A program made the translations under genes and the position numbers. Under the pieces are notes generated by a model. The model saw only the letters and a list, made by a program, of their open reading frames with translations. It made no database searches and was not told the origin of the DNA. This document shows, one piece after another, positions 1,365 through 26,741 of a stretch of 64,000 nucleotides of DNA. The stretch covers positions 372,001 through 436,000 of the forward strand of contig NZ_JAJKBG010000002.1 in NCBI RefSeq assembly GCF_022750635.1, given 5' to 3'. This DNA comes from Brevundimonas pishanensis (GTDB lineage: Bacteria; Pseudomonadota; Alphaproteobacteria; Caulobacterales; Caulobacteraceae). The number at the start of each line of letters is the position of its first letter. Position 1 is the first letter of the stretch.

Positions 1365-1411
1365 TCGGCCCCTCTCACCCCCTGATTAGATCAACATAAG
1401 GACGAACCCGA

Positions 1412-2320: not shown

Positions 2321-2345
2321 CCTATCGCCCCCCGGCGCTCGGGGC

Positions 2346-2407
2346 GGGGCTGGTCCGACAACAGCGGTTTATCCGTCTGCAGCGTCCGACCAGCCCCCCA
2401 CCCCGTT
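2346..2407 (+). repeat. Long inverted repeat between M and L
   Basis: The arms GGGGCTGGTC (2346-2355) and GACCAGCCCC (2398-2407) are perfect 10-bp complements separated by 42 bases. They sit in the only sizeable gap (123 bp) of the head operon. In RNA this could form a stem with an internal loop, but no T-run follows, so it is not a standard terminator. It may be an mRNA stability or processing element; function is unknown. Confidence 0.4.
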
Positions 2408-2443
2408 ACCGGATCCGGCGACACCTGGAATCCCTCGCCTACC

Positions 2444-4110: not shown

Positions 4111-4114
4111 GATT

Positions 4115-5278: not shown

Positions 5279-5315
5279 CCATGCCCTCATGTAGCGAAGC
5301 GATAGGGCAAGATTA

Positions 5316-5999: not shown

Positions 6000-6103
6000 G
6001 CCACTGGCCGCCGATGTTTTCATTGTTTGAAGGAACTTTACATTCTTTCATACAGCGTAGATAGGAAAATACAGCCGCGCTTTCAGCGCTTGGGGAGAAG
6101 GCG

Positions 6104-7093: not shown

Positions 7094-7440
7094 TTCGCCT
7101 TGCACATTCTACCGAAGAAGCGACCGATCCGCCGCAGCATTGCCCACAATCCCTGGAGACATAAGATATAGAATGCGAGGCTTGCTATGAACGGTGCCAA
7201 ACGGAAGTCGTCTTCGGGGAAGCCAATTTTGCCTTCGACCGATATGCCCGGACGATCGAATGCGAAGGGAGCTGGCCAGCCACCGTTCAAAACAGGTTTT
7301 GGGCAGTAAATATCAACGCCATCTGAGGTCTTGCCCAGATCGCAATAGATCGCCTGATCTGGCCCGTGACGTTGAATAGCGCATGAGCTGACTGACAAGA
7401 TGCTCCCCAACACCGCGATGATGACAAATCTCAATTTCAA
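7090..7440 (-). CDS. Small lipoprotein/membrane protein of unknown function (prophage cargo)
   Basis: 116 residues read leftward from a TTG start with GGGAG about 10 bases upstream. The N terminus (FVIIAVLGSILSVSSC) looks like a lipoprotein signal with cysteine 20. A second hydrophobic stretch (FIASLAFYILCLQGLWAML) lies near the C terminus. Its stop overlaps the kinase stop by 4 bases in convergent orientation. It is AT-richer than its neighbours and opposite to the late operon, as expected of a lysogenic-conversion gene expressed in the prophage. No family recognised. Confidence 0.55.
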   Translation of the reverse strand: MKLRFVIIAVLGSILSVSSCAIQRHGPDQAIYCDLGKTSDGVDIYCPKPVLNGGWPAPFAFDRPGISVEGKIGFPEDDFRLAPFIASLAFYILCLQGLWAMLRRIGRFFGRMCKAN

Positions 7441-7701
7441 CTCAACGACGCTCCCGTTAGGCGAATAAGATTATATAAAATAATCGATCCTCACCTGCGC
7501 GCCACGGCTACTCGCCCTTCGCGAGAAATTTCCGTGACCACCTTCGGCAGGCATAACCTGAAGACGGTTATACTCCAGTGGTGTTCGGGGGACGTTGAAC
7601 CGCAATGATGATGCATGCCGCCCAGCCGTCCATGTTGTGCGGGGCGGTTCTTACAACAAGCCCCCGTCAGCCCCGCCCGCGCTCGCGGTTAGCGTCTGGG
7701 C
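7441..7701. other. Intergenic region upstream of J with late-promoter element
   Basis: This 261-bp gap separates the leftward lipoprotein-like gene from the rightward baseplate genes. The part next to the leftward gene (7465-7490) is AT-rich and probably contains its promoter. The part next to J contains the 26-bp dyad at 7633-7658. No ribosome-binding site is visible immediately before the J start. No further gene seen. Confidence 0.6.
7633..7658 (+). promoter_or_regulatory. Candidate Ogr-binding late-promoter element (copy 1)
   Basis: A 26-bp sequence with dyad arms TGTTGT and ACAACA around a GC-rich 14-base centre. It is identical to the copy at 11268-11293. P2-family late promoters carry a TGT/ACA dyad centred near -55 that binds the zinc-finger activator Ogr/Delta, and an Ogr homologue is encoded at 18669-18992. 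The dyad centre is 56.5 bases before the J start codon. Confidence 0.75.
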
Positions 7702-8616
7702 ATGACCCAATATTCCGGCCCGTCAGGCGGCACGACCGCCGTTGATCTGTCTCGACTGCCCTTCCCTGCGGTGATCGAAACGCTCAGCTTCGAGCAGATC
7801 GCCGAAAGAATGAAGGCGGATCTGATCGCGCTGATCCCCGAGACCGCAGCCGTCCTGCAGGATGAAAGCGAAGTCTTGGTCAAGTTGATCCAGATCTGGG
7901 CTTACCGCGAACTCAACCTTCGCCAGCGCGTCAATGACGCCGCGAAGGCTATGAGCCTGCCCTATGCGACCGGCTCTGATCTGGACGTTGTGGCGGCACC
8001 CTTCGCCACGCGCATGATCCTGACCCCAGCCGATCCGCTCACCGGTGCGCCGGCAGTCATGGAGAACGACAGTTCGCTACGCGAGCGCGCCATGCTTGGC
8101 CCTGAAGGCTTCTCTGTCGCCGGACCCGCTGGTGCCTATGTGAAGCTTGCCCGCCAAGCCTCGCCGGATGTTCTCGACGCCTCCTGCACGTCACCGGAAC
8201 CCGGCACAGTCCTCGTGTCGGTTCTGTCGCGTGACGACGGCGGTGTCGCTGATCAGGCGCTGATCGATCAGGTCATGGCCGCCGTCTCGGCAGAAGACGT
8301 CCGACCGCTGACCGATTATGTCGTCGTGGCCTCTGCAGAGATCATTCCGTTCGAGGTCGAGGCTGTCATCAAGACCTTCAATGGCCCCGACAGCGAGGTC
8401 GTGATGACGCTCGCGCGATCGCGGCTGGACGAACACATCGCCCGTTCCTATCGCCTTGGCCGCGATATCACCCGTTCATCGTTGATCGCGGCGCTCTGCC
8501 CCGATGGCGTCCAGGACGTGAACCTGATCAAGCCGGCAGCGTCAATTGTCATCGAACCAGAGCAAGCCGCACTCTGCACCGGCATCACGATCACGCACGG
8601 CGGTCTGGCCGAATGA
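7702..8616 (+). CDS. J: Baseplate assembly protein GpJ
   Basis: 304 residues, the usual size of P2 GpJ (302). Characteristic segments are VDLSRLPFPAVIETLSFEQI at the N terminus, ELNLRQRVNDAAKAMSLPYA and the C-terminal LIKPAASIVIEPEQAALC. GpJ forms the baseplate wedge with GpI and GpW. It is the first gene after the candidate Ogr box and overlaps I by 4 bp (ATGA). In P2, V and W precede J; here they lie 3 kb downstream. If transcription starts 55 bases past the dyad centre, the mRNA would be leaderless or nearly so. Confidence 0.92.
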   Translation: MTQYSGPSGGTTAVDLSRLPFPAVIETLSFEQIAERMKADLIALIPETAAVLQDESEVLVKLIQIWAYRELNLRQRVNDAAKAMSLPYATGSDLDVVAAPFATRMILTPADPLTGAPAVMENDSSLRERAMLGPEGFSVAGPAGAYVKLARQASPDVLDASCTSPEPGTVLVSVLSRDDGGVADQALIDQVMAAVSAEDVRPLTDYVVVASAEIIPFEVEAVIKTFNGPDSEVVMTLARSRLDEHIARSYRLGRDITRSSLIAALCPDGVQDVNLIKPAASIVIEPEQAALCTGITITHGGLAE

Positions 8617-9182
8617 CCGACCTCAAGTCCGCTGATCAGACTTCGCTGTTGCCGCCAAACGCGACCGCTGTCGAGCGCGCTATCGAAACCCTCAGCCGCC
8701 GGCTGGATGACATCCCGTCCCCGTTGCGCGATCTGGTCAATCCCGAAACCTGCCCTGCCCGCTTCCTGCCGTGGCTCGCCTTCACGCTGTCTGTCGATAC
8801 TTGGAACCCCGCCTGGTCGGAGCGTGTAAAGCGCAACCTGATCGCGGCATCGATGGATCTGCACAAGCGCAAAGGATCCGCCGGATCGGTGCGGGCTGTC
8901 GTTCAAGCCTTCGGCGGTCAAATCGCCCTGCGCGAGTGGTGGCAGATGGAACCGCCGGGGCAGCCGCATACCTTCGACATAGTCCTGACCCTGTCAGGCA
9001 ATGACGGAGAAGCGGCCAGCCAGAGCTTCATCGAAGAAGTCATTGACGAAGTCGCCCGCACGAAGCCGGCGCGCAGCTGGTTCACCGTCACCCAAGGATT
9101 CCTCGCCACCGGCGCACTCCGCGCGATCGCTGCCGCCCGTCCCGCAATCTATCGCCGTCTAACTCTGACTGAGGCCAGCTAA
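8613..9182 (+). CDS. I: Tail protein GpI (baseplate wedge)
   Basis: 189 residues matching the phage tail protein I family in length (P2 I is 176 aa) and in motifs: LLPPNATAVERAIETLSRRL, CPARFLPWLAFTLSVDTWNP and WSERVKRNLIAASMDLHKRK. It starts within the last codons of J (ATGA overlap) and ends 3 bp before the fibre gene. It is part of the baseplate wedge to which the fibres attach. Confidence 0.9.
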   Translation: MTDLKSADQTSLLPPNATAVERAIETLSRRLDDIPSPLRDLVNPETCPARFLPWLAFTLSVDTWNPAWSERVKRNLIAASMDLHKRKGSAGSVRAVVQAFGGQIALREWWQMEPPGQPHTFDIVLTLSGNDGEAASQSFIEEVIDEVARTKPARSWFTVTQGFLATGALRAIAAARPAIYRRLTLTEAS

Positions 9183-9185
9183 CCG

Positions 9186-10922
9186 ATGACCGGTTTCACG
9201 ATCACCATCACCGATGCAGGGCGCGCCGCTCTGATCAATGCCCAGAACAATGGCTCGGCGGCCTTCATCCTGTCCCAGATCGGCGTCGCATCCCAAGCCG
9301 TCACGACGCCGCTGGCCGCTCTGACGGCTCTGCCGAACGAAACAAAGCGCCTCGCCACCATGGCCGGCGATGTAGTCGCTGACGATACTCTGCACGTCAC
9401 CATCCGCGATGAAACGACCGATGCCTATGCGCTACGCGCCTTCGGGATCTACACCGACACCGGCGTCCTGTTCGCAGTTTACAGCCAAGCGGACCCGATC
9501 ATTGAGAAGTCGGCCGCCGCGATGCTTCTGCTGGCCGTGGATGCGCGTCTGCTTACGCTCGACACCGACCAGATCGAGTTCGGCCCTGTCGGCTTTACCC
9601 TGCCGCCGGCAACCGAAACGCTCGCTGGTATCAGCGAGGTCGCCACGGACGCCGAAGCCGACGCTGGCACTGACAACTGGCGCTACATCACCCCGCGCCT
9701 GCTGAAGCGCGCTCTATCGGCACTTAGCGGCTTCGCGGCCATCGGCTATAAGCACGATGCAGCCGACGTCGAGACCGGCACCTTCCACGTAAGCCGGATC
9801 CCCGAACTGGCAATGAGCAAAATCACCGGCCTGGTGGCAGCGCTCGGTGCGAAAGCCGACGCCGTACACAGCCACGGCGTCGCCGCCATCGCGGGATTGT
9901 CCGACGCGCTGGCCGGTAAGGCTGCATCGGTCCACCAACACGCGGCAGATGACATCGTGTCGGGTGTTCTGGCTGTCGCCCGAATACCGTCGCTGGCAAT
10001 GGACAAGATCACCGGACTGGCCGCTGCGCTTGCTACGAAGGCAACCTTGGGCGTGAACAATGTGTTCCGTGATGTGATCGCCGGCCGCGATGCGCTCACC
10101 GGCGTCTACTACTTCGGCACCGATGCGGGCAGATGGCTTGCATATTCCAACAACCGTTTCGAACTGGTGGGTCTTGGAGGACTGACGGTCAACGGATATC
10201 CCGTATTCACGACGCAGAATTTCGATCCCAACAGCAAGGCCAATATTTATGCCCCAACCTTTGGGGGTCTAATCACGACGCCAAACGTCGCCATCAGGGC
10301 TGATGCTTCGACGTGGCGCAGTCTAAAATTCTTCTCTGGCGATGCCGAACGCCACGGCTTCATGATGGACACCCAGGCAGAAAACGCAGCCAGTGCCGGC
10401 GGCAATCTGCTCTACTATCTCGTCCGTAACGACGGCGTGACGGTCAACATGTGGCAAGGTGAGCGCGCCTCGGGTCGAATGCGTTATTTCGCGACCCCTC
10501 ACGTCAACGGGGCTGACGTATTCCACGGCGGCAACATCATCAACGCGGCGCAGTACCGGGCTAACACCGGCACCGGTGCGATCACGCCGGCGACGGTCTG
10601 GTCGGCAGCCGAGATCCAGACCATCACCCAGGACGCAATCCTGACGGTCAACCTGGGCACTGGCCTGAACTTCACGACCGTCATGACCGGCAATCGCACC
10701 CTCGGCGCGCCTTCCAATGCCAAGCCGGGGCAATCTGGCGTAATCCAGATCTGGCAGGATGGTACCGGAGGGAGAACCCTGACGTTCGACTCTGCCTGGA
10801 AGTTCGCCAACGGGCTTGTCCCGCAACTGTCGACTGCCGCCAATGCCCGCGATGTCCTGGTGTTTACAGTCATCGCATCGGGTGATGTCGTGGCCTCTCT
10901 TATGAAGGACGTCCGCCGATGA
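9186..10922 (+). CDS. H: Tail fibre protein GpH-like
   Basis: 578 residues. The N-terminal ~150 residues (MTGFTITITDAGRAALINAQ ... FGIYTDTGVLFAVYSQADPI ... FGPVGFTLPPATETLAGISE) are the conserved GpH tail-attachment domain. Residues about 180-290 contain two degenerate repeats of an AD-V-GTFxVxRIPxLAMxKITGL type, typical of fibre shafts. The distal part is unrelated to anything I recognise, as expected for a host-range tip. It binds the receptor on the cell surface. No GpG-type fibre assembly chaperone follows, so folding may not need one or it is supplied by the next gene. Confidence 0.86.
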   Translation: MTGFTITITDAGRAALINAQNNGSAAFILSQIGVASQAVTTPLAALTALPNETKRLATMAGDVVADDTLHVTIRDETTDAYALRAFGIYTDTGVLFAVYSQADPIIEKSAAAMLLLAVDARLLTLDTDQIEFGPVGFTLPPATETLAGISEVATDAEADAGTDNWRYITPRLLKRALSALSGFAAIGYKHDAADVETGTFHVSRIPELAMSKITGLVAALGAKADAVHSHGVAAIAGLSDALAGKAASVHQHAADDIVSGVLAVARIPSLAMDKITGLAAALATKATLGVNNVFRDVIAGRDALTGVYYFGTDAGRWLAYSNNRFELVGLGGLTVNGYPVFTTQNFDPNSKANIYAPTFGGLITTPNVAIRADASTWRSLKFFSGDAERHGFMMDTQAENAASAGGNLLYYLVRNDGVTVNMWQGERASGRMRYFATPHVNGADVFHGGNIINAAQYRANTGTGAITPATVWSAAEIQTITQDAILTVNLGTGLNFTTVMTGNRTLGAPSNAKPGQSGVIQIWQDGTGGRTLTFDSAWKFANGLVPQLSTAANARDVLVFTVIASGDVVASLMKDVRR

Positions 10923-11257
10923 TGCCGGGTATCCTCCCTTCGCTGCTGATGGCCAGCACTTCGACGCTTTCGGTGAAGGTTATCCCCGCAGTCGGCTATT
11001 GGCCGACGGAAGCTCCCTATCGCGTGACCACAATCGCCGAGGCGAGTGGTGGTGTTCCCCCTTACACCTACGGTTGGAACGACACCGGACCTTGGCCGGT
11101 CGGCGGGACTTACGGGGGGCAGGTTAAGGACTGGGAGCCTGCGGGCGGCGTTCCGCAGGACGCATTCGTCTCCATCCTCGTTATCGACGCAGCCGGCAAC
11201 CAGGCAACCGCTAGTGGCGAGATCCGATTGTTCATGGATGGCCCTATCCTCGGCTGA
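10919..11257 (+). CDS. Small tail-fibre-associated protein, Ig/PKD-like
   Basis: 112 residues overlapping the fibre stop by 4 bp (ATGA). The sequence is beta-rich with a pattern (ASGGVPPYTYGWNDTG, then VSILVIDAAGNQATASGEI) resembling Ig-like or PKD-type repeats on phage virions. It occupies the place of the P2 fibre chaperone G but shows no similarity to it. It may be a decoration or fibre-tip module; function is not established. Confidence 0.6.
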   Translation: MMPGILPSLLMASTSTLSVKVIPAVGYWPTEAPYRVTTIAEASGGVPPYTYGWNDTGPWPVGGTYGGQVKDWEPAGGVPQDAFVSILVIDAAGNQATASGEIRLFMDGPILG

Positions 11258-11267
11258 TCTGGCCGCT

Positions 11268-11293
11268 TGTTGTGCGGGGCGGTTCTTACAACA
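11268..11293 (+). promoter_or_regulatory. Candidate Ogr-binding late-promoter element (copy 2)
   Basis: Identical over 26 bp to the element at 7633-7658 (arms TGTTGT and ACAACA). Its centre lies 57.5 bases before the V start codon, nearly the same spacing as copy 1 has to J. As in copy 1, no Shine-Dalgarno sequence precedes the downstream ATG. Confidence 0.75.
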
Positions 11294-11337
11294 TCGCCGC
11301 CGCGCACACGCCTAACGCCTGATCCATCGTCGGCGGC

Positions 11338-11916
11338 ATGCACGGGAACCAACGCGCCGCTACCCCCTCCAACACCGATCGCGCCATTAGCGATCTGGTG
11401 CGCGAAGGCGTGGTTGAGAGCGTGGACCTGAATGCCGGCACGGCCATCGTGCGCATTGGCGATATTCTGACGCCTCCCTGCAGTTGGTCGATGTCGGTCG
11501 GCGACACCTCGATCTGGATTCCGCTCGCAGTCGCCCAGCCCGTTCTTGTCTGCTGCCCCGAAGGCGACATCGAGCGCGCCTTCATTTCCGGTTCACTCCC
11601 GACGACCGCGATGCCGCCGCTCGCGCTGGGGGAAAAGGTCGGCATCAAGTTCAAAGACGGCGCGCTGATCACTTACGACCCCGCCGCGCAGCTGCTGCAG
11701 ATCGAACTGCCAGGGCAAGCCACGATCATTGCGCCTTCCGGCGTGTCAATCGAAGCCGACGTAACCCTGCAGGGCGATCTGTCCGTCTCGGGTGACGTGT
11801 CGTGTGCAGGCACGGTGACTGGCTCGAGCGACGTGATCGGAGGCGGCAAGTCCCTCAAGGGACACAAACACACAGGCGTCGCGGCTGGCTCTGCCTTATC
11901 GGGTGCGCCCCAATGA
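11338..11916 (+). CDS. V: Baseplate spike GpV
   Basis: 192 residues, near P2 GpV (211). The N-terminal OB-fold segment (REGVVESVDLNAGTAIVRIG ... VGDTSIWIPLAVAQPVLVCC) is followed by a beta-helical stalk with the repeats SGVSIEADVTLQGDLSVSGD. The C-terminal HKHTGVAAGSALSGAPQ has the His-x-His iron-binding apex typical of GpV spikes. It forms the trimeric membrane-piercing needle. It overlaps W by 4 bp (ATGA). Confidence 0.92.
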   Translation: MHGNQRAATPSNTDRAISDLVREGVVESVDLNAGTAIVRIGDILTPPCSWSMSVGDTSIWIPLAVAQPVLVCCPEGDIERAFISGSLPTTAMPPLALGEKVGIKFKDGALITYDPAAQLLQIELPGQATIIAPSGVSIEADVTLQGDLSVSGDVSCAGTVTGSSDVIGGGKSLKGHKHTGVAAGSALSGAPQ

Positions 11917-12260
11917 GCGGCCTTCGCGCATCGAACGCCACGGCCATTGCGCCTGTCGACGACGATTATATCCGCCTTTCGGTCGCCGACATCCTGACGA
12001 CGCCGGTCGGAACGCGAGTCATGCGCCGCGACTACGGCTCGTACATTCCCGAGCTGATCGATCAGCCGATGAACGACGTGACCCGCCTGCGGATCCTGGG
12101 CGCGACCGCCATGGCGCTGTTGCGCTGGCACAAGCGGTCAAGGCTCAAATCCGTGCAGCTGAACGTCGACGGCCACAAAGCGGATCTGAAGCTGCAGCTG
12201 GTCCGCACCGATCTTCCCCGCCGCCAAACCCTCTGGGCGAGCGTCCCCCTTCTCAAATGA
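11913..12260 (+). CDS. W: Baseplate wedge protein GpW
   Basis: 115 residues, the P2 GpW size, homologous to T4 gp25 (lysozyme-like baseplate family). Signature segments are VADILTTPVGTRVMRRDYGS, IPELIDQPMNDVTRLRI and a C-terminal RTDLPRRQTLWASVPL. The start is the ATG overlapping the V stop; a longer upstream frame lies wholly inside V and is ignored. It is needed for nucleating the sheath on the baseplate. Confidence 0.92.
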   Translation: MSGLRASNATAIAPVDDDYIRLSVADILTTPVGTRVMRRDYGSYIPELIDQPMNDVTRLRILGATAMALLRWHKRSRLKSVQLNVDGHKADLKLQLVRTDLPRRQTLWASVPLLK

Positions 12261-12281
12261 TGTGTTCTTAAGGATCTGAAC

Positions 12282-13466
12282 ATGGCTCTCTCGCCTCGCC
12301 CGCACGGCGTCAAAATCGTTGAAGTCGCCGCCGGCGCAACCACCCTGGCCATCGCGGCGACCGCCATCTGGGGCATCGTGGCGACGGCTCCTGCAGCCGA
12401 CACTGACGCATTCCCTCTGGACACGCCGGTACTCGTTACCGACATCGAGGACGCCATCGTGAAGGCGGGCGCAGGCGGTACACTGGCCGTATCGCTGAAG
12501 GCTATCGGCGATCAGGCATCGGCAATCGGCGTCGTGATCCGCGTCGCCGAAGGCACCGGCGGCAACGCCGCAGACAAGGAAGCCTCGCAAATCGCAAACC
12601 TGATCGGCGGTGGCGCGGCTGGATCCCGCACCGGCATGCAGGCCATGCTTGATGCCGAAAGCGTGCTGGGTGTTCGCCCGCGCATCCTCGCCATTCCGGG
12701 CTTCAAGGATCAAACCGTTGGCTCGGCTCTCGGGCTGATCGCCGCCAAGCTGAACGCGGTCGGCTATTTCGAGGCGGGGCCGACCCGCACCGTCACCGCA
12801 GCTGCGGCGTTCCGCGCCAACTTCACCCAGCGCGAACTGTTCCTGATCTTTGGCGACTTCCAGGCTCCTGACCCCTTCACCAAGGTCGTCGGCCCGTCGT
12901 ACGCCACGGCAGTCGCGGTCGGCCTGCGCGCTCGCATCGATCAAGAGGTCGGCTTCCACAAGACGATCTCGAACGTGGCGGTGGCTGGCGTCACTGGCAT
13001 CGACACTATCGTCAGCTGGGATCTGCAGGACGAAAACACCGAAGCCGGCCTGCTGAACGGCGCCGACATCACCTGCCTGATCCGCCGCAACGGCTTCCGT
13101 TTCTGGGGCAACCGCGGCTGCTCGGAAGATCCGCGTTTCGCCTTTGAAAGCGCCGTCCGCACCAATCAGGTGCTTCGCGACACCATCGCCGAAGGGCTGT
13201 TCACCTATGTTGATCGCCCGCTCACACAGGCACTCGCGCGCGACATTGTCGAAAGCATCAATGCTCTGTTCCGCCGCCTCAAGGCGTCGGGTCAGATCAT
13301 CGGCGCTGAAGCCTACCTGACCGAAGCCAATACCGCGTCACAGTTGGCCGGCGGAAAGCTGAGCCTCGGCTATCGCTTCACCCCCGTCGCCCCGCTGGAA
13401 GATCTCGGCCTCGAGAGCCTGATCTCCGACGAATACTACGCCGACTTCAACACCCTCGCCGCCTGA
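12282..13466 (+). CDS. FI: Contractile tail sheath protein GpFI
   Basis: 394 residues, practically the P2 FI length (396). Starts LSPRPHGVKIVEVAAGATTL and includes DTPVLVTDIEDAIVKAGAGG, GRNGFRFWGNRGCSEDPRF-like core (NGFRFWGNRGCSED) and the C-terminal GYRFTPVAPLEDLGLESLIS, all diagnostic of P2-type sheath. Sheath contraction drives the tube through the envelope. A short 21-bp gap follows W and there is no separate late box before it, so it is probably read from the promoter upstream of V. Confidence 0.96.
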   Translation: MALSPRPHGVKIVEVAAGATTLAIAATAIWGIVATAPAADTDAFPLDTPVLVTDIEDAIVKAGAGGTLAVSLKAIGDQASAIGVVIRVAEGTGGNAADKEASQIANLIGGGAAGSRTGMQAMLDAESVLGVRPRILAIPGFKDQTVGSALGLIAAKLNAVGYFEAGPTRTVTAAAAFRANFTQRELFLIFGDFQAPDPFTKVVGPSYATAVAVGLRARIDQEVGFHKTISNVAVAGVTGIDTIVSWDLQDENTEAGLLNGADITCLIRRNGFRFWGNRGCSEDPRFAFESAVRTNQVLRDTIAEGLFTYVDRPLTQALARDIVESINALFRRLKASGQIIGAEAYLTEANTASQLAGGKLSLGYRFTPVAPLEDLGLESLISDEYYADFNTLAA

Positions 13467-13519
13467 TCCTCTGACGACAAAGTCAGACACAAGCCCTCGA
13501 TTTATCAGGAAACATCGAA

Positions 13520-14029
13520 ATGAAACTGCCCCGCAAACTTAAGGACATGGTTGTCCACGGCAACGGCGAGAGCTTCATGGGTGAATGCAAGACCTTCACC
13601 CGTCCCCCGCTCGAAATGGAAGGCGAGGACTATCGCGGTGCCGGCATGATCGCTCCGGTCAAACTGTTCACCGGTTTGGCTGGGCTCGAGGTCGAGCATG
13701 TCTATGGCGGCGAGATCCCCGCTCTGAATGCCACCTTCGCCGAACATGCCCTGGACGCAAGCCAGCTGCGCTTCACCGGTGCCTATCAGCACGGTGCCGA
13801 TGGCGCCTACGACCATGTCGAGATCACGGTTCGTGGCCGCACCTTTGCCATCGATGCAGGCGGTGACGAAATCGGCGGCGACACCGAGGTCACCTATAAG
13901 ACCACCTGTGTCTATTACAAACAGGTCCGCAATGGCCGCGTCGAGTTCGAGATCGATGTCCTGAACAAGGTCTTCATCGTGGCCGGCGTCGATCGCATGG
14001 CTGAAGAACGCTCGATCCTCGGCACCTGA
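13520..14029 (+). CDS. FII: Tail tube protein GpFII
   Basis: 169 residues, similar to P2 FII (172). It begins MKLPRKLKDMVVHGNGESFM and has KTFTRPPLEMEGEDYRGAGM and a C-terminal NGRVEFEIDVLNKVFIVAGV, the family signature. It polymerises into the inner tube on the tape measure. It directly follows the sheath gene as in P2. Confidence 0.96.
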   Translation: MKLPRKLKDMVVHGNGESFMGECKTFTRPPLEMEGEDYRGAGMIAPVKLFTGLAGLEVEHVYGGEIPALNATFAEHALDASQLRFTGAYQHGADGAYDHVEITVRGRTFAIDAGGDEIGGDTEVTYKTTCVYYKQVRNGRVEFEIDVLNKVFIVAGVDRMAEERSILGT

Positions 14030-14095
14030 TCTGCCTGGGCGGGTCGCGAGATCCGCCCCACTCTTCATCCAGAACATTAAGACCGGACACCCGCC

Positions 14096-14404
14096 ATGAG
14101 TGATACCACCCAGACCCAGACCGCCGTTGTTGAATTCGATACGCCACTAAAGCGCGGCGAGACGGTGATCGATCGCGTGACCCTTCGCAGGCCGCTCGGC
14201 GGCGCACTGCGCGGCGTCAAGCTTGTCGATCTCTACAACCTCGACGTCGTCGCTGTATCCAAGGTGCTGCCGCGTATCTCAGAGCCGGTGATCACCGAAG
14301 CTGAATATCTAACCATGGAAGCCCCCGACTGCGCCGCGATCGCAGAGGAAATCGTCGCTTTTTTGCTGACGAAGAAGCAGCGGGACGAAGCTGGCCTAGC
14401 CTGA
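14096..14404 (+). CDS. E: Tail protein GpE (zero-frame product)
   Basis: 102 residues, conserved tail-assembly protein of the P2 E family (LKRGETVIDRVTLRRPLGGA, then LRGVKLVDLYNLDVVAVSKV). It acts as a tail-assembly chaperone with the E+E' frameshift product, in analogy to lambda G/GT. The 0-frame stop is at 14402-14404, 37 bases after the slippery heptamer. The P2 E product is 91 aa. Confidence 0.9.
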   Translation: MSDTTQTQTAVVEFDTPLKRGETVIDRVTLRRPLGGALRGVKLVDLYNLDVVAVSKVLPRISEPVITEAEYLTMEAPDCAAIAEEIVAFLLTKKQRDEAGLA

Positions 14405-14562
14405 TTGACGACGCCATGGCCGACATCGCCATGGTGTTTCACTGGTCCCCCGACGTGATGGCCGAAATGAGCCTCGGGGAGATCGTCAGCTGGCGCGAGA
14501 AGGCCGTCGATCGCTGGAACAAGATGCACGCTGCACCTGAAAAGGGACGCGGCAAAACCTGA
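14096..14562 (+). CDS. E: Tail assembly chaperone E+E' (-1 frameshift fusion)
   Basis: If ribosomes slip -1 on T-TTT-TTG at 14359-14365, translation continues in frame for 65 more codons to a TGA at 14560-14562, giving about 155 residues (P2 E+E' is 142). The extension has the GpE-family signature DIAMVFHWSPDVMAEMSLGE and SWREKAVDRWNKM. The extension lacks its own good start and overlaps the E reading frame. It ends 10 bp before the tape measure gene. The frameshift is inferred from the conserved site and the conserved coding of the -1 frame. Confidence 0.88.
14359..14365 (+). promoter_or_regulatory. Programmed -1 frameshift slippery site T-TTT-TTG
   Basis: The heptamer is in exact phase with the zero frame of E (Ala-Phe-Leu, GCT TTT TTG). 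The same T6G heptamer is used in P2 E to E'. The -1 frame downstream encodes the conserved E' domain up to 14562. Confidence 0.9.
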
Positions 14563-14572
14563 GACCCTAAAA

Positions 14573-17128
14573 ATGTCCCGTAGTCTGCGCCTATCGCTGA
14601 TCATGAACGCCGCTGGCAACGCCACCCGCTTCCTGAAGGAAGTCAAAGGCGGCAGCGATGGCGCGTCGAAGGCACTACGGGCAGCGCGCGAGCGGGTCAC
14701 TGAACTGCAGCGCGCGTCCAAGGACATTTCAGCCTATCGCCAGATGTCGGATCGGCTGGGTCAGACCCGCGAGAGCCTGCAGGCGGCAAGGGTCGAAGCC
14801 GCAAGGCTCGCCCAGGCGCACAAGAACGCCGAGAAGCCGACACGCCAACTGACCCGCGCCTTCGAACAGGCTCGCGATCGTGTCCGTAACCTGAAGGCTG
14901 CAGAAGAAGGCCACAGCCGAACTTTGCAAGAGATCCGCGGTCGCCTCGATCGCGCCGGCTACTCGACCAAGAACCTGTCGGGTGCCGAAGCGAAGCTCGC
15001 TAACGAGACGCGCAAAGCGAACAGAGCGCTGGTCGAACAACGCGACAAACTGGCAGCGCTCGAGTCCCGACAAAAGCGCATGGCCGATGCCCGGACCCGC
15101 TACGACCAAACGCAGTCGTTTGCAGGCAAGGCTGCTGGCGCTGGCGCTGCCTCGATCGGTGCTGGCGTAGCGGCAGCGGCACCGCTGGTAGTGGCTGGCC
15201 GCGCCGCCATGAACTTTCAGGATGCCATGCTGGACGTAAAGAAGGTGGTCGACTTCGACACGCCTGAACAGTTCCAGCAGATGAACCGCGACATCATCGA
15301 TCTGTCACGGCAGCTTGCCCTGCCGGCGGAGGGCATTGCGCAGATTGTTGCAGCAGCGGGTCAAGCCAAGATCCCGCGCGATGAGCTAAAAGGCTTTGCA
15401 ACCGATGCGGGCCAGATGGCTGTTGCCTTTGGAACCACAGCCGAAGACGCGGGCCAGAAGCTCGCAACCTGGCGTGTCGCCTTTGGCATGAACCAAGGTG
15501 CGGTACGCGGGCTGGCTGACCAGATCAACTATCTCGGCGACAACGGCAACGCGACAGCCCTGGCCATTTCTGACGTCGTCACACGCGTGGGGCCGCTGGG
15601 CGGCGTTGCGGGCATGGCGGCTTCTGAGGTTGCCGCATTGGGTTCAACCATCGTCGGCATGGGCGTTGAGCAAGAGATCGCCGCCACCGGCATTAAGAAC
15701 ACCATGCTAGCGCTGACGACAGGCGATGCCGCCACCAAGAGCCAGCGCACCGCCTTCAAAGCTCTTGGTCTTGAGGCCGGCAAGGTCTCCAAAGCCATGC
15801 AGATGGATGCCGGCGGCACCATCGTTGATGTCCTCGAGCGCGTCAGCAAGCTATCGCCAGACAAGCAGGCATCCATCCTGCGGCAACTGTTCGGATCTGA
15901 ATCGGTCGCGGCCATCGCGCCAATGCTGTCGCAGCTGGACGTCCTGAAGCAGAACCTCGACGCCGTTTCCGACAGTCAGAAGACCGCCGGATCTATGGCA
16001 ATCGAATTCGAGAACCGCATGTCCGGTGCCAAAGCCGGGATGGATCGCGCAAAGCAGGGTCTTATCGGTGTCGCAATCACGGCTGGCACTCAGTTCCTGC
16101 CGACAATCGAAAGCGTGGCTAAAAAGGTTGAAACCGCATCTTCCCAGCTGACGGACTTCGCCAATAAGCATCCAAACGTGATCAAGGTCGCCGGTGCGCT
16201 GGTGGCCATTATCGCCGCTGCCCTTCTGGTGTTTGGCGCTCTAGCTATGATCGTGGCCGCAGTGCTGGCCCCCTTTGCGCTGCTGCAGTTAGCCTTGTCG
16301 ACGTCCGCAGCACTCTTTGCACCGGTCATGGCGGGGATGTCGGGGCTAGTCGCCACCACATGGGCATGGACCGCCGCGCTATTGGCCAACCCGTTGACGT
16401 GGATCGTTCTGGCTGTTGTCGCGGCTGTCGCCCTGCTGGCCGGTGCCGTCTACCTCATCTATCGGAATTGGGGCGCGATCAGCCAATGGTGGTCCTCCTT
16501 CTGGGCCTCGATGCGCGACATAGGAAGCAAGGCCATCCAAGGCCTGATCTTCCTGTTCATGAACTTTACCCCCGCAGGGCTGCTGATCCAGGCCTTCCAG
16601 AAGGTCTGGCCGGCGCTACAAGCCTTGGGGGCCAACTTTAAATCCATTGGTGCAGACCTCATCAGAGGGCTGATCAACGGCCTAATGGGCGGCCTGCCTG
16701 CCGTCCTGTCGTCAGTCACCAACATCGGCGGCAAGGTCGTCACGGCGCTGAAGAACAAGCTTGGCATCCGCTCACCGTCGCGCGTGTTCGCGGGGCTGGG
16801 CGATGACACAGTCGCCGGCCTCGCCCAAGGCCTTGATCGGTCGAGTGACCGCGCTGTCAGCACTGTCGCCAAGATCGGTGCAGGTATGACCGCAGCCCTC
16901 GCTGTCGGATCCGGCGGCGCGGCTATGGCATTCGACAACGGCCCCCAGATTGGACCAAGCGCGACGGCGCAGGCGATGGCGGCCCCTGCCCCCAGCGCCG
17001 CATCGATCACCATCAACATCTACCCCCAGCCTGGGCAGTCCCCGATCGACATCGCGCAGTCGATAAAGAGCGTCCTCGAGGGGAACAACCTGTCTGGCTT
17101 CGGCGACGATCCTGAAGGGTTTGACTGA
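14573..17128 (+). CDS. T: Tape measure protein GpT
   Basis: 851 residues (P2 T is 815). The N-terminal third (about 20-190) is coiled-coil with Arg/Ala/Glu repeats. Then comes a TP901-type tape measure core (AGQAKIPRDELKGFATDAGQ; GIKNTMLALTTGDAATKSQR). Two or three hydrophobic blocks at about 540-630 (VAGALVAIIAAALLVFGALA; LTWIVLAVVAAVALLAGAVY) may insert into the inner membrane during DNA ejection. The C terminus has the GINGLMGGLPAVL/IRSPSRVFAGLGDDTVAGLA motif. Length sets the tail length. Located after E/E' as in P2. Confidence 0.95.
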   Translation: MSRSLRLSLIMNAAGNATRFLKEVKGGSDGASKALRAARERVTELQRASKDISAYRQMSDRLGQTRESLQAARVEAARLAQAHKNAEKPTRQLTRAFEQARDRVRNLKAAEEGHSRTLQEIRGRLDRAGYSTKNLSGAEAKLANETRKANRALVEQRDKLAALESRQKRMADARTRYDQTQSFAGKAAGAGAASIGAGVAAAAPLVVAGRAAMNFQDAMLDVKKVVDFDTPEQFQQMNRDIIDLSRQLALPAEGIAQIVAAAGQAKIPRDELKGFATDAGQMAVAFGTTAEDAGQKLATWRVAFGMNQGAVRGLADQINYLGDNGNATALAISDVVTRVGPLGGVAGMAASEVAALGSTIVGMGVEQEIAATGIKNTMLALTTGDAATKSQRTAFKALGLEAGKVSKAMQMDAGGTIVDVLERVSKLSPDKQASILRQLFGSESVAAIAPMLSQLDVLKQNLDAVSDSQKTAGSMAIEFENRMSGAKAGMDRAKQGLIGVAITAGTQFLPTIESVAKKVETASSQLTDFANKHPNVIKVAGALVAIIAAALLVFGALAMIVAAVLAPFALLQLALSTSAALFAPVMAGMSGLVATTWAWTAALLANPLTWIVLAVVAAVALLAGAVYLIYRNWGAISQWWSSFWASMRDIGSKAIQGLIFLFMNFTPAGLLIQAFQKVWPALQALGANFKSIGADLIRGLINGLMGGLPAVLSSVTNIGGKVVTALKNKLGIRSPSRVFAGLGDDTVAGLAQGLDRSSDRAVSTVAKIGAGMTAALAVGSGGAAMAFDNGPQIGPSATAQAMAAPAPSAASITINIYPQPGQSPIDIAQSIKSVLEGNNLSGFGDDPEGFD

Positions 17129-17130
17129 CC

Positions 17131-17559
17131 ATGGCCCTAATCACCCTGGGGATGTTCGTGTTCGATCTCCCGACGCTGACCTATAACCAGCTGCAGCGCC
17201 GCAGCAGCTGGCGTCACCCGACCAGCGACCGTGTCGGCGCTCGCCCGAAAGGCCAGTTCGCAGGCCCAGGCGATGACGATATCACTTTGAGTGGCGTCTT
17301 CGCCCCTATCACGCTGGGTGCAGCTGATAGCTTGGACAAGCTGCGCGAAATGGCCAGCACGGGCGAAGCTTTCCCGCTTGTGGACGGCACTGGCGAGGTG
17401 TTCGGCGCATATGTGATCACGGGCATAGACGAGACGAAGCGCGCCATCATGGACAACGGTCGCCCCCGCGTGACCGACTTCAGCCTTTCGCTCAAACGCA
17501 TGGACGATGATTTGCCAGACGACGGCGAGACGGACGACGCGCCCGAGGCCGCATCATGA
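17131..17559 (+). CDS. U: Tail protein GpU
   Basis: 142 residues in the P2 U position. Family features are GMFVFDLPTLTYNQLQRRSS near the start, the central GDDDITLSGVFAPITLGA and VFGAYVITGIDETKRAIMDN. GpU is a tail terminator/completion component. It starts 2 bp after T and overlaps D by 4 bp (ATGA). The C-terminal tail (MDDDLPDDGETDDAPEAA) is acidic. Confidence 0.93.
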   Translation: MALITLGMFVFDLPTLTYNQLQRRSSWRHPTSDRVGARPKGQFAGPGDDDITLSGVFAPITLGAADSLDKLREMASTGEAFPLVDGTGEVFGAYVITGIDETKRAIMDNGRPRVTDFSLSLKRMDDDLPDDGETDDAPEAAS

Positions 17560-18581
17560 CGGGCCACTACCAGCATAGGCAGGCGGCCTGGAAGCTGATC
17601 ATCAACGGCAACGATATCGGTGCCGTGATCTCGCACCGGCTTATCAGCCTCGAACTGACCGAGAAGCGTGGCACTGACGCTGACGAACTCTCGATCAGTC
17701 TCGCGGACAACGATGGCCAGCTTGCGTTGCCTGCCGCCGGAGCCGTAATCGAACTGCACCTCGGCTGGCGAGATCTCGGCACGTCCGCAGGCGCAACGCT
17801 GATCGACAAGGGACGGTTCAAGGTCGACCAGCTGACGCATACCGGCACCCCCGACGTCCTCACCATTCGCGCCCGATCGGCAGACCTGACGCGCGCATTC
17901 AGAACCCGCCGCACTCAGTCCTGGTCGTCATCGACTTTGGGCGCAGTTCTGGCCGAAGTGGCAGGACGCAACGGACTGCAGCTGCGATGCTCGGCAGAAA
18001 AATCGGCCGTCGCCATCGCGCACCTGGCGCAAAGCAATGAATCGGACGCGGCGCTGATCGCTCGACTAGGGCGGCTGCACGATGCCGTCTCAACCGTAAA
18101 GGCCGGCACTCTGGTGTTCATGGCCTGTGGTGCGGGTCAGACGCCTAACGGCCAGCCTCTCGAACTATCCTCGATCACTCGGCTTAATGGCGATCGACAC
18201 ACCTGGGAGGCCGCAGAGCGCGGCTCATACTCCGGCGTCGTCGCGGAATGGCAGGATCGTGCAGCTGGTCAGCGCAAGAAGGTCGTCGTCGGCGATGAAG
18301 AGAATGCCAAGAAGCTCGCCCGAACCTATGCCTCTGAAGCCAATGCCCGTCGCGCTGCCGATGCAGAATATAAGCGATTGAAACGCGGTGCGGCCAAGTT
18401 CTCGCTCACCTTATGCTCGGGACGTCCCGATATCTTCCCCGAAAAAACAGTAAAAGTCGTGGGATTTAAGCCAGAGATAGATGCAACCGACTGGCTTGTG
18501 GATGAAGCGTGGCACTCCCTTTCGAGTAACGGCCTGACAACGACTCTCCAAATGGAGCGCGGCGGCAACAGTGACAAATAA
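17556..18581 (+). CDS. D: Late control protein GpD (baseplate hub)
   Basis: 341 residues of the GpD/VgrG-like hub family (P2 D is 387). Features are KLIINGNDIGAVISHRLISL, DELSISLADNDGQLALPAAG, LGWRDLGTSAGATLIDKGRF and a C-terminal VKVVGFKPEIDATDWLVDEA. It sits at the baseplate hub beneath the tape measure. In P2 the next gene is ogr, and that is also the case here (25 bp to 88 bp depending on start). Confidence 0.93.
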   Translation: MTGHYQHRQAAWKLIINGNDIGAVISHRLISLELTEKRGTDADELSISLADNDGQLALPAAGAVIELHLGWRDLGTSAGATLIDKGRFKVDQLTHTGTPDVLTIRARSADLTRAFRTRRTQSWSSSTLGAVLAEVAGRNGLQLRCSAEKSAVAIAHLAQSNESDAALIARLGRLHDAVSTVKAGTLVFMACGAGQTPNGQPLELSSITRLNGDRHTWEAAERGSYSGVVAEWQDRAAGQRKKVVVGDEENAKKLARTYASEANARRAADAEYKRLKRGAAKFSLTLCSGRPDIFPEKTVKVVGFKPEIDATDWLVDEAWHSLSSNGLTTTLQMERGGNSDK

Positions 18582-18668
18582 ACAGCAAGCTTAAGCGACA
18601 CGGCGTTGCCGTATAGCGCGGTCCGAATTATCGTCTTCCCCAAGGATGGGGCGTCATCCGAGTTCACC

Positions 18669-18992
18669 ATGTCGATTCAACAAGATCGCGTATCAAACCT
18701 TAGCGGTGGGCGTAGCAGACCGCCCCACAGCAGTGGCGGCACCATTCGCCAGATTTGCCCCCACTGCGAACACGTGGCGACAGCCCGCACGACAAGAACG
18801 ATCACGCCTCTATTCAGAGAGATGCGTTTCCAGTGCACCAACGTCGATGGCGATGATCCGTGCGGTCACACGTTTGTTGCATCTCTGGTAATTGACCGAA
18901 CCATTGTGCCGTCAGCGCGACCGAACCCGGATATCAATCTGCCAATAGCGCCGCCGCGCAAGAAGGCAGACCAGGCGATTACAGTCAGGTAG
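18669..18992 (+). CDS. ogr: Ogr/Delta-type zinc-finger late-transcription activator
   Basis: 107 residues from the ATG at 18669 (a longer frame from 18606 is possible but adds non-conserved residues). Zinc-finger ligands are CPHC, then 22 residues, then QC...C. P2 Ogr has the same C-X2-C-X22-C spacing, but the last pair here is C-X8-C instead of C-X4-C. Flanking residues (RTTRTITPLFREMRFQC; CGHTFVASLVIDRTIVPSA) are typical. It should bind the dyads at 7633 and 11268 and recruit polymerase through alpha CTD. The N terminus (about 35 residues, SGGRSRPPHSSGG) is longer than in P2 (72 aa). Its end overlaps the convergent repressor gene by 8 bp. Confidence 0.88.
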   Translation: MSIQQDRVSNLSGGRSRPPHSSGGTIRQICPHCEHVATARTTRTITPLFREMRFQCTNVDGDDPCGHTFVASLVIDRTIVPSARPNPDINLPIAPPRKKADQAITVR

Positions 18993-22188: not shown

Positions 22189-22410
22189 ATGCTCAAACCT
22201 GTTGTCTCGAAAAATCCCAGCTGGACCGTTGGTCAGCTAACTGAACTCAAAGAACTGCACATTTCATTCCGTGGCGACCTAACCGAAGTCGCGGAAGCGG
22301 TCGGACGTCCCCGCGAAGATTGCGACGCTGCAATTTTCGCCCTCATAGGACGGTCGGCAAGGGAGGCGTTTTGCGCCCTTAATCGTATGGCCCCGAGGGC
22401 CGTCGCGTGA
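22189..22410 (+). CDS. Hypothetical small early phage protein
   Basis: 73 residues, first gene of the rightward early operon, with a strong ribosome site (GGGGGAG) 4-10 bases upstream. Pattern WTVGQLTELKELHISFRGDL then LTEVAEAVGRPREDCDAAIF suggests a short helical, possibly SANT/Myb-like DNA-binding fold, as WTxxQ-LxxL-xxG-xxxIAxxxGR is typical there. Overlaps the next gene by 4 bp. No function established. Confidence 0.65.
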   Translation: MLKPVVSKNPSWTVGQLTELKELHISFRGDLTEVAEAVGRPREDCDAAIFALIGRSAREAFCALNRMAPRAVA

Positions 22411-22760
22411 CCGAGATCCTCGACACCCAAAAACTGACCGCCGAAGTCCAAGATGCTGTCGCAAAGATCGTGATCGTCTCGATCCTTCCGATTCTTGGCA
22501 TGTGTGCCGACACAATCCGCGCCAACGGCGGCATGGGTGGCGGTAAGGCCATCGGCTTCATGACCGGTCTCGCCTTCCATCAGCGCGAAGAAGCCCAGAT
22601 CGACACAAACGAGTTCCTACACGGCCTCGGCGAAGCTTTCGGCGAACGCATGCGCCTGGAACAGCAACCCCCTCAAGCCGCAGAGGCCGTGACCGCCCTA
22701 TTCATCGAAGGCGTCCAACGCGGCTTCGGCGAGCCGCTGGCAAAGGATGGGGCGAAATAA
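22407..22760 (+). CDS. Hypothetical early phage protein
   Basis: 117 residues, coupled to the preceding gene by a 4-bp overlap and to the next one by a shared base (TAATG). A moderately hydrophobic helix ([17 protein letters not shown]) is followed by a Gly-rich segment ([15 protein letters not shown]) and amphipathic helices. Not recognised. Conservation of coupling with the following DNA-binding fusion suggests a shared role. Confidence 0.6.
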
Positions 22761-23290
22761 TGGCAGCCATCCCGACCCACTCCGCACTGGACCTGTTCCA
22801 GGAAGCTGTAAAAATTGTCGTCGGCGAACAGAACGCCTCGACTTCTCATCTGCAGCGCAAATTGCAGATCGGATACAACTCCGCCGCCACGCTGATCGAA
22901 GCCATGGAAACTGCCGGTGTCGTTAGCGCCGCCGACCATGCTGGCAAAAGATCGGTCTTGTACGCCGTCGAAGATCTCGCCGCTCGCGGCGTTGGATCAC
23001 CTCCGATCCTCAACGACCCCGATCGTGACGCATCCTTCGAAAACCCTGACGTCATGACCGCTGCCGCTCAAGGCCGCCTTCGCACCATCATCGAGCGGAT
23101 CGAAAAGCTCGAGGAAGAGAAGAAGGCGATCATGGAGGACATCAAGCAGGTGTTCGCTGAGGCAAAGGGCGAAGGCTACGACGTGAAGGTTCTCCGCAAA
23201 GTCGTCCGTATCCGCAAACAGGACAAGGCCAAGCGCCAGGAGGAAGAGGCCATTCTCGATCTCTACCTGTCTGCGCTGGGCGAGGTGTGA
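22760..23290 (+). CDS. FtsK-gamma winged helix fused to GapR (DUF2312) domain
   Basis: 176 residues with two recognisable domains. Residues about 10-70 match the FtsK gamma winged helix ([39 protein letters not shown]), which in FtsK/SpoIIIE reads KOPS/SRS orientation sequences. Residues about 100-176 are a full GapR domain ([55 protein letters not shown]), nearly identical in pattern to Caulobacter GapR, a dimer/tetramer that clamps overtwisted DNA. A linker (about 71-95) joins them. No FtsK motor is present. Presumably it binds DNA during phage replication or competes with host GapR/FtsK. Confidence 0.92.
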
Positions 23291-23292
23291 TC

Positions 23293-25431: not shown

Positions 25432-25628
25432 CTGCCCCTACGAGAAGCCGCCGAAGCCTGACTTCGCTGGTTCAACGCGCCATCCAATCGGGCAATCACC
25501 GGGTCGACATCGCGCCGGACGGTATGGTCACTATCTTGCCTTTGAACGTTTCTGCTGCGCAGGCTGATCAGATTGCGCTCGATGCAGAGATCTCAGAGCT
25601 ACTGAACAATGGCCATGGTCCCCGTTAA
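25428..25628 (+). CDS. Small protein upstream of integrase, possible directionality factor
   Basis: 66 residues with a basic N-terminal helix (RSRRSLTSLVQRAIQSGNHR) and a short beta segment (VDIAPDGMVTILPL). It overlaps the integrase start by 20 bp. Small basic proteins directly before the integrase are often excisionases, but no excisionase signature is visible, so this is a weak inference. Confidence 0.58.
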   Translation: MTAPTRSRRSLTSLVQRAIQSGNHRVDIAPDGMVTILPLNVSAAQADQIALDAEISELLNNGHGPR

Positions 25629-26622
25629 AGGTGTTCACGTCGTCAAGAGTAACGGCCGAACCTACGTTTATGCCTGGCGCGGGGGGCCGCGACTTCAAGC
25701 CCAGCTGGGTACGCCTGAATTCTTTCAGGAACTGGCTGAAATCACGGCCAAAACAACCGCTCCGGATAGTCGCAAAATCCTTGGGCTGGTTGCGGATTAT
25801 CGCGGCTCGGACGACTGGAAACGACTTGCCGAGAAATCCCGAAAAAACTGGCAGCCATTTCTAGACAGCATCTGCGACACGTTCGGCTCCACAAGCATAG
25901 CCGCATTCGACCGCCCTCTTGTTCGGGTCGCTATCCGCCAGTGGCGCGACCGTTATAAGAACACGCCTCGTCAAGCCGACATGGCGCTGCAAGCACTGTC
26001 GCGCGTACTATCCTTTGGTGTTGCTGAGGGCCGCCTTCAGGCCAATGCCTGCACAGGCATTCCACGCCTCTATAAGAGCAATCGCGCAGAAATCATTTGG
26101 CTGCCTGAAGACATTCAGGCGCTATCCGAACACGCCTCCAAAGAGGTCATGTGGGCTGTGCGAGTGGCCAGTCTGACAGGCCTGCGCAAATCCGATCTTT
26201 TGAAACTGTCCTGGTCCCACGTGCAGCCCTATTCGATTGAGCGCCGGACAGGCAAAAGCAATCATCAGAAGACTGCCGTCATCCCGCTCTATCGCGAGCT
26301 GCGCGAACTTCTCGCTGAGATACCAAAGCGCGCTACCACCATCCTGACCAACACAGACGGCCATCCCTGGAAGAGCGGCTTTGATGCCTCATTCCGACCG
26401 GCCAAACTCAAAGCTGGCATAGATCACCACTTCCATGATCTGCGAGGCACCGCTGCGACGAGAATGTACATGGCCGGCCTCACGGTGCGCGAAATTGCCG
26501 AAATGTTCACATGGAGCGAAGACCAGGTCGAACGCCTGATCAAGGTCTACGTCAAAAAGGACGAGATCCTTCTGGACCGGATTCGCCGCATCGATGAGCT
26601 CGAAGCGAGAACAAAGCTGTAA
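25609..26622 (+). CDS. int: Tyrosine recombinase integrase
   Basis: 337 residues. The core-binding domain is at about 60-150; the catalytic domain has SLTGLRKSDLLKLSW (Arg-I), the beta-hairpin Lys (HQKTAVIPL), HDLRGTAATRMY (His-x-x-Arg), a Trp in the third-His position (MFTWSEDQVERLI) and the nucleophile Tyr in IKVYVKKDE. It recombines the phage into the 3' end of the adjacent tRNA-Arg gene. It starts inside the previous ORF, so it is co-transcribed with early genes. It stops 43 bp before the tRNA. There is no separate leftward transcription of int as in P2. Confidence 0.95.
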   Translation: MAMVPVKGVHVVKSNGRTYVYAWRGGPRLQAQLGTPEFFQELAEITAKTTAPDSRKILGLVADYRGSDDWKRLAEKSRKNWQPFLDSICDTFGSTSIAAFDRPLVRVAIRQWRDRYKNTPRQADMALQALSRVLSFGVAEGRLQANACTGIPRLYKSNRAEIIWLPEDIQALSEHASKEVMWAVRVASLTGLRKSDLLKLSWSHVQPYSIERRTGKSNHQKTAVIPLYRELRELLAEIPKRATTILTNTDGHPWKSGFDASFRPAKLKAGIDHHFHDLRGTAATRMYMAGLTVREIAEMFTWSEDQVERLIKVYVKKDEILLDRIRRIDELEARTKL

Positions 26623-26661
26623 AAAACGCTGTAAAAACGTTCAGCCCCAATCCCCCTAAAA

Positions 26662-26710
26662 CCCTGGCGCGCCCTGCAGGACTCGAACCTGCAACCGTCC
26701 GCTTAGAAGG
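26662..26710. other. Probable attR core within tRNA 3' half
   Basis: The border between integrase-flanking DNA and host sequence must lie in the 3' half of the tRNA gene, most likely including the T arm and anticodon segment. The matching attL copy is outside, so limits are approximate. Confidence 0.6.
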
Positions 26711-26741
26711 CGGGTGCTCTATCCGGTTGAGCTAAGGGCGC
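26665..26741 (-). tRNA. tRNA-Arg (anticodon TCT), attachment-site tRNA
   Basis: On the minus strand it begins GCGCCCTTAGCTC and ends with encoded CCA. The anticodon loop CTTCTAA gives anticodon TCT. Acceptor (GCGCCCT/AGGGCGC), D stem and T arm (GGTTCGAGTCC) are all intact, closely resembling E. coli tRNA-Arg-UCU. The 3' end faces the integrase, the classic arrangement for a tRNA att site; the prophage has restored the tRNA 3' end. Confidence 0.97.

Follow-up and report, generated by a model that had tools for sequence, protein, structure and literature searches.

The gamma domain of the FtsK translocase is reported to bind KOPS as a trimer before the FtsK hexamer assembles (PMC5357621). GapR of Caulobacter is a tetramer that binds DNA through phosphate contacts (PMC7498317, PMC7373187), prefers overtwisted DNA and helps gyrase and topoisomerase IV (PMC8510090, PMC8360656). 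Each has been met separately in phages. A gamma domain on a small terminase has been proposed to mark a loading site (PMC8190038), and the GapR of Erythrobacter phages was reported as the first in a phage genome, in a paper in which the word FtsK is absent (PMC12185513). In the open-licence literature searched (FtsK gamma, GapR, RdgC and phage or prophage), no description of a gamma–GapR protein was found. One such protein is encoded in the genome of Brevundimonas pishanensis (2,916,570 bases in 17 contigs). Coordinates refer to the window, that is, the whole 64,000-nucleotide stretch of DNA analysed; negative positions lie upstream of it.

Domain composition of the fusion protein

The gene and the parts of its product are as follows.

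22760..23290, + strand: FtsK_gamma–GapR fusion gene, 176 aa (open frame; Pfam)
22790..22963, + strand: FtsK_gamma winged helix, residues 11–68 (PF09397, 7e-24; structure match 2ve9)
22964..23065, + strand: stretch between the two Pfam matches, residues 69–102 (71–98 with pLDDT <50; Pfam, AlphaFold)
23024..23287, + strand: segment of the same extent as host GapR from its residue 2, residues 89–176 (80/88 identical)
23066..23281, + strand: GapR domain, residues 103–174 (PF10073, 1.7e-33)

The frame is intact, with no internal stop, and its start codon agrees with that of relatives P0001–P0010. The initial annotation had recognized an N-terminal FtsK gamma fold and a full GapR domain near residues 100–176, and had proposed a Pfam search for both; FtsK_gamma scores 83.8 bits (cut-off 30.6) and GapR_DNA-bd 114.5 bits (cut-off 22.6), and a chance match is excluded for either domain. 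The ATPase motor of the FtsK translocase is absent, as had also been claimed: only these two families exceed the Pfam cut-offs in the protein, three further rows lying below their own. The score against the NCBIfam GapR equivalog NF052541 is 147.2, against a cut-off of 140.

The solved relatives identified by sequence are GapR 6ozx (3.5e-33) and FtsK gamma 2j5o and 2ve8 (about 5e-11). In an AlphaFold model built on a 14-row alignment (mean pLDDT 71.7, pTM 0.37), the gamma half is confident, residues 71–98 are uncertain and the GapR half forms three helices. Over 58–59 columns the gamma half superposes on 2ve9, a gamma bound to KOPS, with an rmsd of 0.5–0.7 Å (Foldseek), and the first 13 matches to the model are all FtsK gamma. 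GapR is missing from the 50 Foldseek matches listed, and the GapR half is therefore assigned on sequence.

Location within a P2-like prophage

The prophage location given in the initial annotation is confirmed by the following features.

318..18992, + strand: P2-type prophage genes: head, tail and Ogr-like (Pfam)
22407..22760, + strand: ORF next upstream, 117 aa, without a family match, whose stop overlaps the fusion start
25609..26622, + strand: prophage integrase at the right end (PF00589, 1.1e-15)
26661..26711, no strand: attR-type 51-bp exact repeat of the tRNA-Arg(tct) 3' end; second copy starting at window -10389

The 51-bp repeats at 26661 and -10389 bound an element of 37.05 kb in tRNA-Arg. 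Its P2-type capsid, GpL, Tail_P2_I, GpU, GpD and Ogr/Delta genes (Phage_cap_P2, Phage_GPL, Tail_P2_I, Phage_P2_GpU, Phage_GPD and Ogr_Delta, all over the Pfam cut-offs) show that it is P2-like. In the part of the prophage inside the window, Pfam gave no initiator family for 20716–21411 that could be set beside P2 gpA, and the PHROG match there is weak (0.0012). Amid the structural genes lies a membrane histidine kinase gene (6104–7093; HisKA_2, HATPase_c and DUF4118), which is probably prophage cargo.

The fusion gene, which overlaps the genes on either side, belongs to a tight, rightward, mostly overlapping block that runs from 22189 to the end of the integrase at 26622. This agrees in part with its earlier assignment to an early operon; however, the putative replication genes and the CII-like gene, the latter matched only weakly (0.0033), lie at 19375–21414 and are parted from the block by a gap containing a minus-strand ORF (21834–22196). 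A promoter scan of 21300–26800 found no sigma-70-like promoter, a result that says little for this organism.

Genes for an HTH protein (23598) and a TetR-like protein (24198) surround the fusion gene. Such company would suit a plain phage regulator, in which gamma would do no more than anchor the protein to DNA, as winged helices commonly do, and phage promoters would be under its control; T4 DsbA, described as a GapR homologue, is suggested to recruit RNA polymerase to late promoters (PMC7824862). We consider this unlikely, as it would leave unexplained the presence of gamma on RdgC and on terminase proteins (PMC8190038).

Conservation of functional residues

Residues 89–176 of the fusion are identical to host GapR (residue 2 to its end) at 80 of 88 positions (91%), with 81.4% identity at the DNA level. 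The comparison of the host gapR gene with this half of the fusion gives a dN of 0.061 and a dS of 1.32, so that protein change has been constrained in one or both of them. Most of the differences from host GapR are conservative. The residues of GapR concerned with DNA contact, salt bridges and ring closure have been named (PMC7498317, PMC7373187); in an ungapped alignment with Caulobacter GapR, those at K34, K42, K49, K56, K60, R63 and K66 and at R26, E28, E31, E47, R65, D68, Y82 and E88 are all identical in the fusion. The sole change among the published ring and DNA-contact residues compared is that of K59 to R.

The gamma half is identical to the gamma domain of host FtsK at 39 of 65 positions. 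With an identity of 80/88 to host GapR as well, both host proteins could be mimicked, and the fusion might then take over the host, competing with FtsK for KOPS or entering host GapR rings and poisoning them, so that segregation and division are halted after induction. The retention of the functional GapR residues, with mostly conservative changes elsewhere, is more in keeping with a ring that works than with one that poisons, and we regard a take-over of this kind as rather improbable.

Gamma residues are numbered here as in E. coli FtsK, anchored on residues 1289–1297, RQFRIGYNR (PMC5052618), for which the fusion has RKLQIGYNS. Segments from 59 FtsK, 39 gamma–GapR, 36 GapR–gamma, 13 RdgC–gamma and 19 other gamma proteins were compared after removal of identical segments within each group; FtsK was assigned by frame and origin and is mostly alphaproteobacterial. 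The QR-G-N core (Q32, R33, G38 and N40 of the fusion) is invariant or nearly so in alignment A1, and in the 39 gamma–GapR segments it is kept at Q1288 (97%), R1289 (92%), G1294 (94%) and N1296 (97%), together with R1320 (100%).

Position 1297 behaves differently from the core: it is R (88%) or K (11%) in the 59 FtsK segments and R (25%), S (25%), K (20%) or A (17%) in the 39 gamma–GapR segments. The fusion has S at this position (S41), in place of the Arg/Lys of the FtsK sample, and the motif read by its gamma may consequently differ from KOPS or be lax. Positions 1296, 1300 and 1303 of FtsK gamma contact KOPS. The loss of Arg at 1300 was considered as a fusion-specific loss of KOPS reading and rejected, as host FtsK also has T there; the FtsK sample has S (54%) or T (42%). 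Position 1292 is Q in the fusion and in host FtsK alike.

The gamma residues reported to touch XerD are Q1288, R1289, R1292, I1293, G1294 and N1296, of which R1289 is the most important, R1297 making no XerD contact; KOPS is bound by the same surface (PMC5052618). Since one surface serves both, conservation of the gamma core cannot separate a role in KOPS reading from a role at XerD.

Occurrence of the pairing in other phages and genomes

Further fusions were sought with gamma and GapR profiles built from relatives of the fusion protein. A protein search gave 14 gamma–GapR and 29 GapR–gamma proteins among the best 120 of 1043 relatives. An alignment search, in which 7996 candidates were scored, gave 58 fusions (21 gamma–GapR and 37 GapR–gamma) among the best 120 of 1166. 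All 173 protein ids together comprise 21 gamma–GapR and 41 GapR–gamma proteins and one protein with two gammas, with linkers of 28–112 residues in the former order and 12–158 in the latter. Eight records of annotated phages, all Rhodobacter phages, cover at least 80% of the fusion query.

A gamma-seeded scan of viral sequences recovered 66 contigs, in which gamma is joined to GapR in 29 (23 gamma–GapR and six GapR–gamma) and lacks GapR in 37. Fifteen of these 37, and so of the 66 overall, encode RdgC–gamma proteins, called with a profile made from seven Pfam-confirmed cases; the other 22 have neither GapR nor an in-frame RdgC, and 11 of them were scanned with Pfam. As the contigs include near-copies (L191/L192/L195/L196 and L200/L202/L204) and seeding with gammas of fusions favours fusions, these counts are not natural frequencies. 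In two of these 22, L247 and L249, the frame with RdgC overlaps that with gamma without being the same, which may represent a split RdgC–gamma. Gamma is also joined to VapE-like (L205), ribosome modulation factor (L189) and pyrophosphatase (L212) domains, and lies within frames of more than 2000 residues in L224 and L243.

Other searches returned few fusions. Two GapR-seeded viral scans gave one (L065) among loci L006–L153, and a search with the gamma region gave eight protein matches, one of them a fusion. GapR was found in the gamma frame at none of the at least 80 loci listed in a profile scan of genome contigs (A4); 68 of the loci listed are long frames with a C-terminal gamma and 12 are others, all of which are read as FtsK. 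One further GapR–gamma frame (G574) appears among the matches listed from 385 genomes of the class, a lower bound, and a second gamma–GapR frame, of 208 aa, was found in another genus of the same taxonomic order (G703:C1, locus L389). Between gamma and GapR in L065 (7998–8741) and P0148 there is a Cys-rich stretch of CxxC pairs that looks zinc-ribbon-like by eye, and P0132 is a tandem GapR–GapR protein of 179 aa.

No constant neighbour gene was recognized in the 34 loci compared. The commonest neighbour families are one present in 12 loci on either strand, perhaps antisense noise of the crude ORF caller, and the integrase family of the window, present in 10.

The fusion is thus not a one-off: both gamma–GapR and GapR–gamma recur. 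The architecture, presented in the initial annotation as unfamiliar, is already clustered as phrog_4212, a family that contains both domains and has no function label. That related viruses have joined the same parts in both orders suggests that the pairing does something useful. The opposite view, that the fusion is meaningless or decaying, could appeal to the 299 genomes of the family, among whose listed matches (a lower bound) the own genome alone matches residues 1–176; with both orders recurring, the core residues kept and the frame intact, it is very hard to credit.

A tree of 138 GapR domains (66 standalone, 37 gamma–GapR and 35 GapR–gamma; 72 columns) bears on how often the parts were joined. 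It includes one in three of the standalone protein ids and a single copy of each sequence in a given state, and omits the GapR-only loci L006–L153; P0121 has no row of its own and is covered by its locus, L005. Eight of the 134 inner branches of this quick tree are starred, stars with long rows deserving less trust, and the starred branches force at least five changes between the fused and standalone states, or at least six for gamma–GapR, each of which may be a gain or a loss. Over 72 residues, the GapR domain of P0002 does not differ from that of a standalone GapR of the genus. The GapR half of L194 is 89% identical to a standalone GapR, compared with 67% to the nearest fusion of the same order and 72% to the nearest of the other order; for L253 the values are 93, 64 and 72%. 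Several fusions therefore look to have arisen independently, on thin support. The GapR domain of the window fusion is 90% identical both to host GapR and to that of fusion P0001, and its own joining need not be recent.

KOPS, dif and Xer recombination in the host

The KOPS octamer GGGNAGGG occurs 99 times on the + strand and four times on the – strand in the first 360 kb of the contig, and once on + and 24 times on – in the 116 kb sampled past the switch, near which the GC skew also flips sign. The prophage carries seven copies, which follow the host polarity. Sites for a KOPS reader therefore exist in both.

The dif site of the genome lies at C10:352418–352445 (window -19582), near the polarity switch. 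The dif core pattern was found once each in 19 of 31 genomes of the genus, compared with 1/31 for the reversed control, and the own 28-base form has no match at three or fewer mismatches in the 30 other genomes. The central bases of the own dif are CGAATA, those of the other 18 matching genomes of the genus being GATATA, GACATA or GAGATA. The CGAATA centre could be the trace of an element that made use of XerCD at this site, or the outcome of drift.

A dif-like sequence, a weak lead only, is present in the prophage.

7154..7181, + strand: dif-like sequence, intergenic, with the genus centre GATATA

This site was first spotted with a dif template and only afterwards scored with a matrix of 13 distinct dif sites of the genus, by which it reaches 10.1 bits, against 30.1 for dif and 1.6 for the next unrelated site in 476 kb; a score as high was seen in one of 100 Markov prophages.

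These sites bear on the suggestion that the fusion hijacks Xer recombination, in which a ring would bring gamma to XerD and activate XerCD in place of FtsK, whether at the dif of the host or at a similar site of the phage, and so resolve phage multimers or disturb chromosome dimer resolution. The XerD-touching residues Q1288, R1289, I1293, G1294 and N1296 are kept in the fusion (compared with PMC5052618, Table 1), and a nine-residue peptide of the gamma surface, fused to XerC, is reported to suffice to stimulate recombination (PMC5052618). Moreover, the distance from dif to the start of the prophage is 9.2 kb, and the dif-like site within the prophage is second only to dif in 476 kb. Nevertheless, the kept residues do not discriminate, the same surface reading KOPS, and several other observations point away from this role. 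The best XerD candidate of the host (314.6, below the curated XerD cut-off of 329.6) has A and S where E. coli XerD has the chief contacts of R1289, namely E183 and E184, which were expected to be kept, so that the E. coli gamma–XerD contact may not carry over.

On a softer dif matrix, best scores average 9.47 in fusion loci (n=32), 9.85 in shuffles (n=25), 8.33 in 147 GapR-only viral loci (overlapping contigs included) and 9.58 in 37 further loci with gamma. Against the 19.1 of the window site, scores of up to 19.6 were seen among the shuffles and of up to 21.7 among the GapR-only loci. There is thus no dif-like excess in fusion loci, and relatives, of which only part of each phage is covered, give no support to a phage dif-like site as a general partner. 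Closeness to dif was likewise rejected as a rule: in the other chromosome with a fusion (G703), the gene lies at 3.203 Mb, distant from the skew switches, some 0.4–0.8 Mb from the nearer one on sparse sampling. Sites in tRNA genes near termini often hold prophages. Taken together, a hijack of Xer appears quite unlikely.

Possible function

The reading that we prefer, a real possibility though short of probable, is that the fusion is a motorless analogue of FtsK, a GapR ring whose tethered gammas choose its loading place. Its parts are evident from the sequence, and what follows concerns how they might work. Four fusion subunits, possibly mixed with host GapR, would form a GapR ring, which would thereby carry up to four tethered, flexible gamma domains. 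In FtsK, gammas jointly bind the 8-bp KOPS and set the motor ring down facing one way; those of the fusion may likewise set down, or hold, a motorless ring at KOPS-like octamers. While the phage is replicated or transcribed, the ring could then help gyrase and topoisomerase IV where DNA is overtwisted. The protein would work as FtsK minus the pump, or as GapR plus an address label.

Small terminases are rings. RdgC is also described as a ring, of dimeric form (PMC11390915). It is because gamma turns up time and again on DNA proteins of the ring type that loading is a likelier role than an action on Xer, a take-over of the host or plain regulation. Against loading counts the KOPS polarity of the prophage, which host adaptation alone explains.

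More tentatively, FtsK_gamma may be a portable loading address for DNA-encircling proteins, by which passive rings are set at oriented octamers in phage or host DNA. Phages would have taken gamma from the motor ring of FtsK and attached it to three or more DNA proteins unrelated to one another, namely GapR (in either order), RdgC and the small terminase, the fusion being the motorless FtsK among them.

The fusion is small and soluble, and the activity of the protein to which its gamma is joined is known, so that the roles in ring loading, Xer recombination and host block become testable. If loading is its role, orientation can be read without the motor, and nature possesses a sequence-addressed sensor of overtwisted DNA.

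Relationship to described systems

The closest counterpart of the C-terminal half is GapR (UPF0335/DUF2312) of Caulobacter crescentus, with which the fusion shares the complete domain, the ring and DNA-contact residues and a score over the NCBIfam equivalog cut-off. It differs in having a gamma winged helix added at its N-terminus through a linker, and in being prophage-encoded in a genome that has a separate GapR besides. The N-terminal half has the fold and the QR-G-N core of FtsK gamma (PF09397; 2ve8, 2ve9 and 2j5o). Unlike FtsK, the fusion has no motor, has S for R at 1297 and is joined to GapR.

T4 DsbA is, as stated in PMC7824862, a phage-encoded GapR-like ring; no gamma domain is mentioned in that description, which is the basis of the comparison. 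The RdgC–gamma proteins of viral contigs (e.g. L220) also place gamma on a ring-forming DNA protein, but the partner is RdgC and gamma is C-terminal. The small terminase of Bacillus phages Sam46 and Sam112 is, like the fusion, a phage protein with an N-terminal FtsK_gamma; its partner, however, is Terminase_2, and the role proposed there is in packaging (PMC8190038). The members of phrog_4212 and gp60 of Rhodobacter phage RcKemmy have gamma and GapR in the same order as the fusion, gp60 differing in its length of 444 aa, its two gammas and a long C-terminal extension. The borrowing of FtsK_gamma is thus already published, the pairing of gamma with GapR being the part for which no description was found in the literature searched, and we therefore call the fusion a member of the group of phage proteins that borrow FtsK_gamma.
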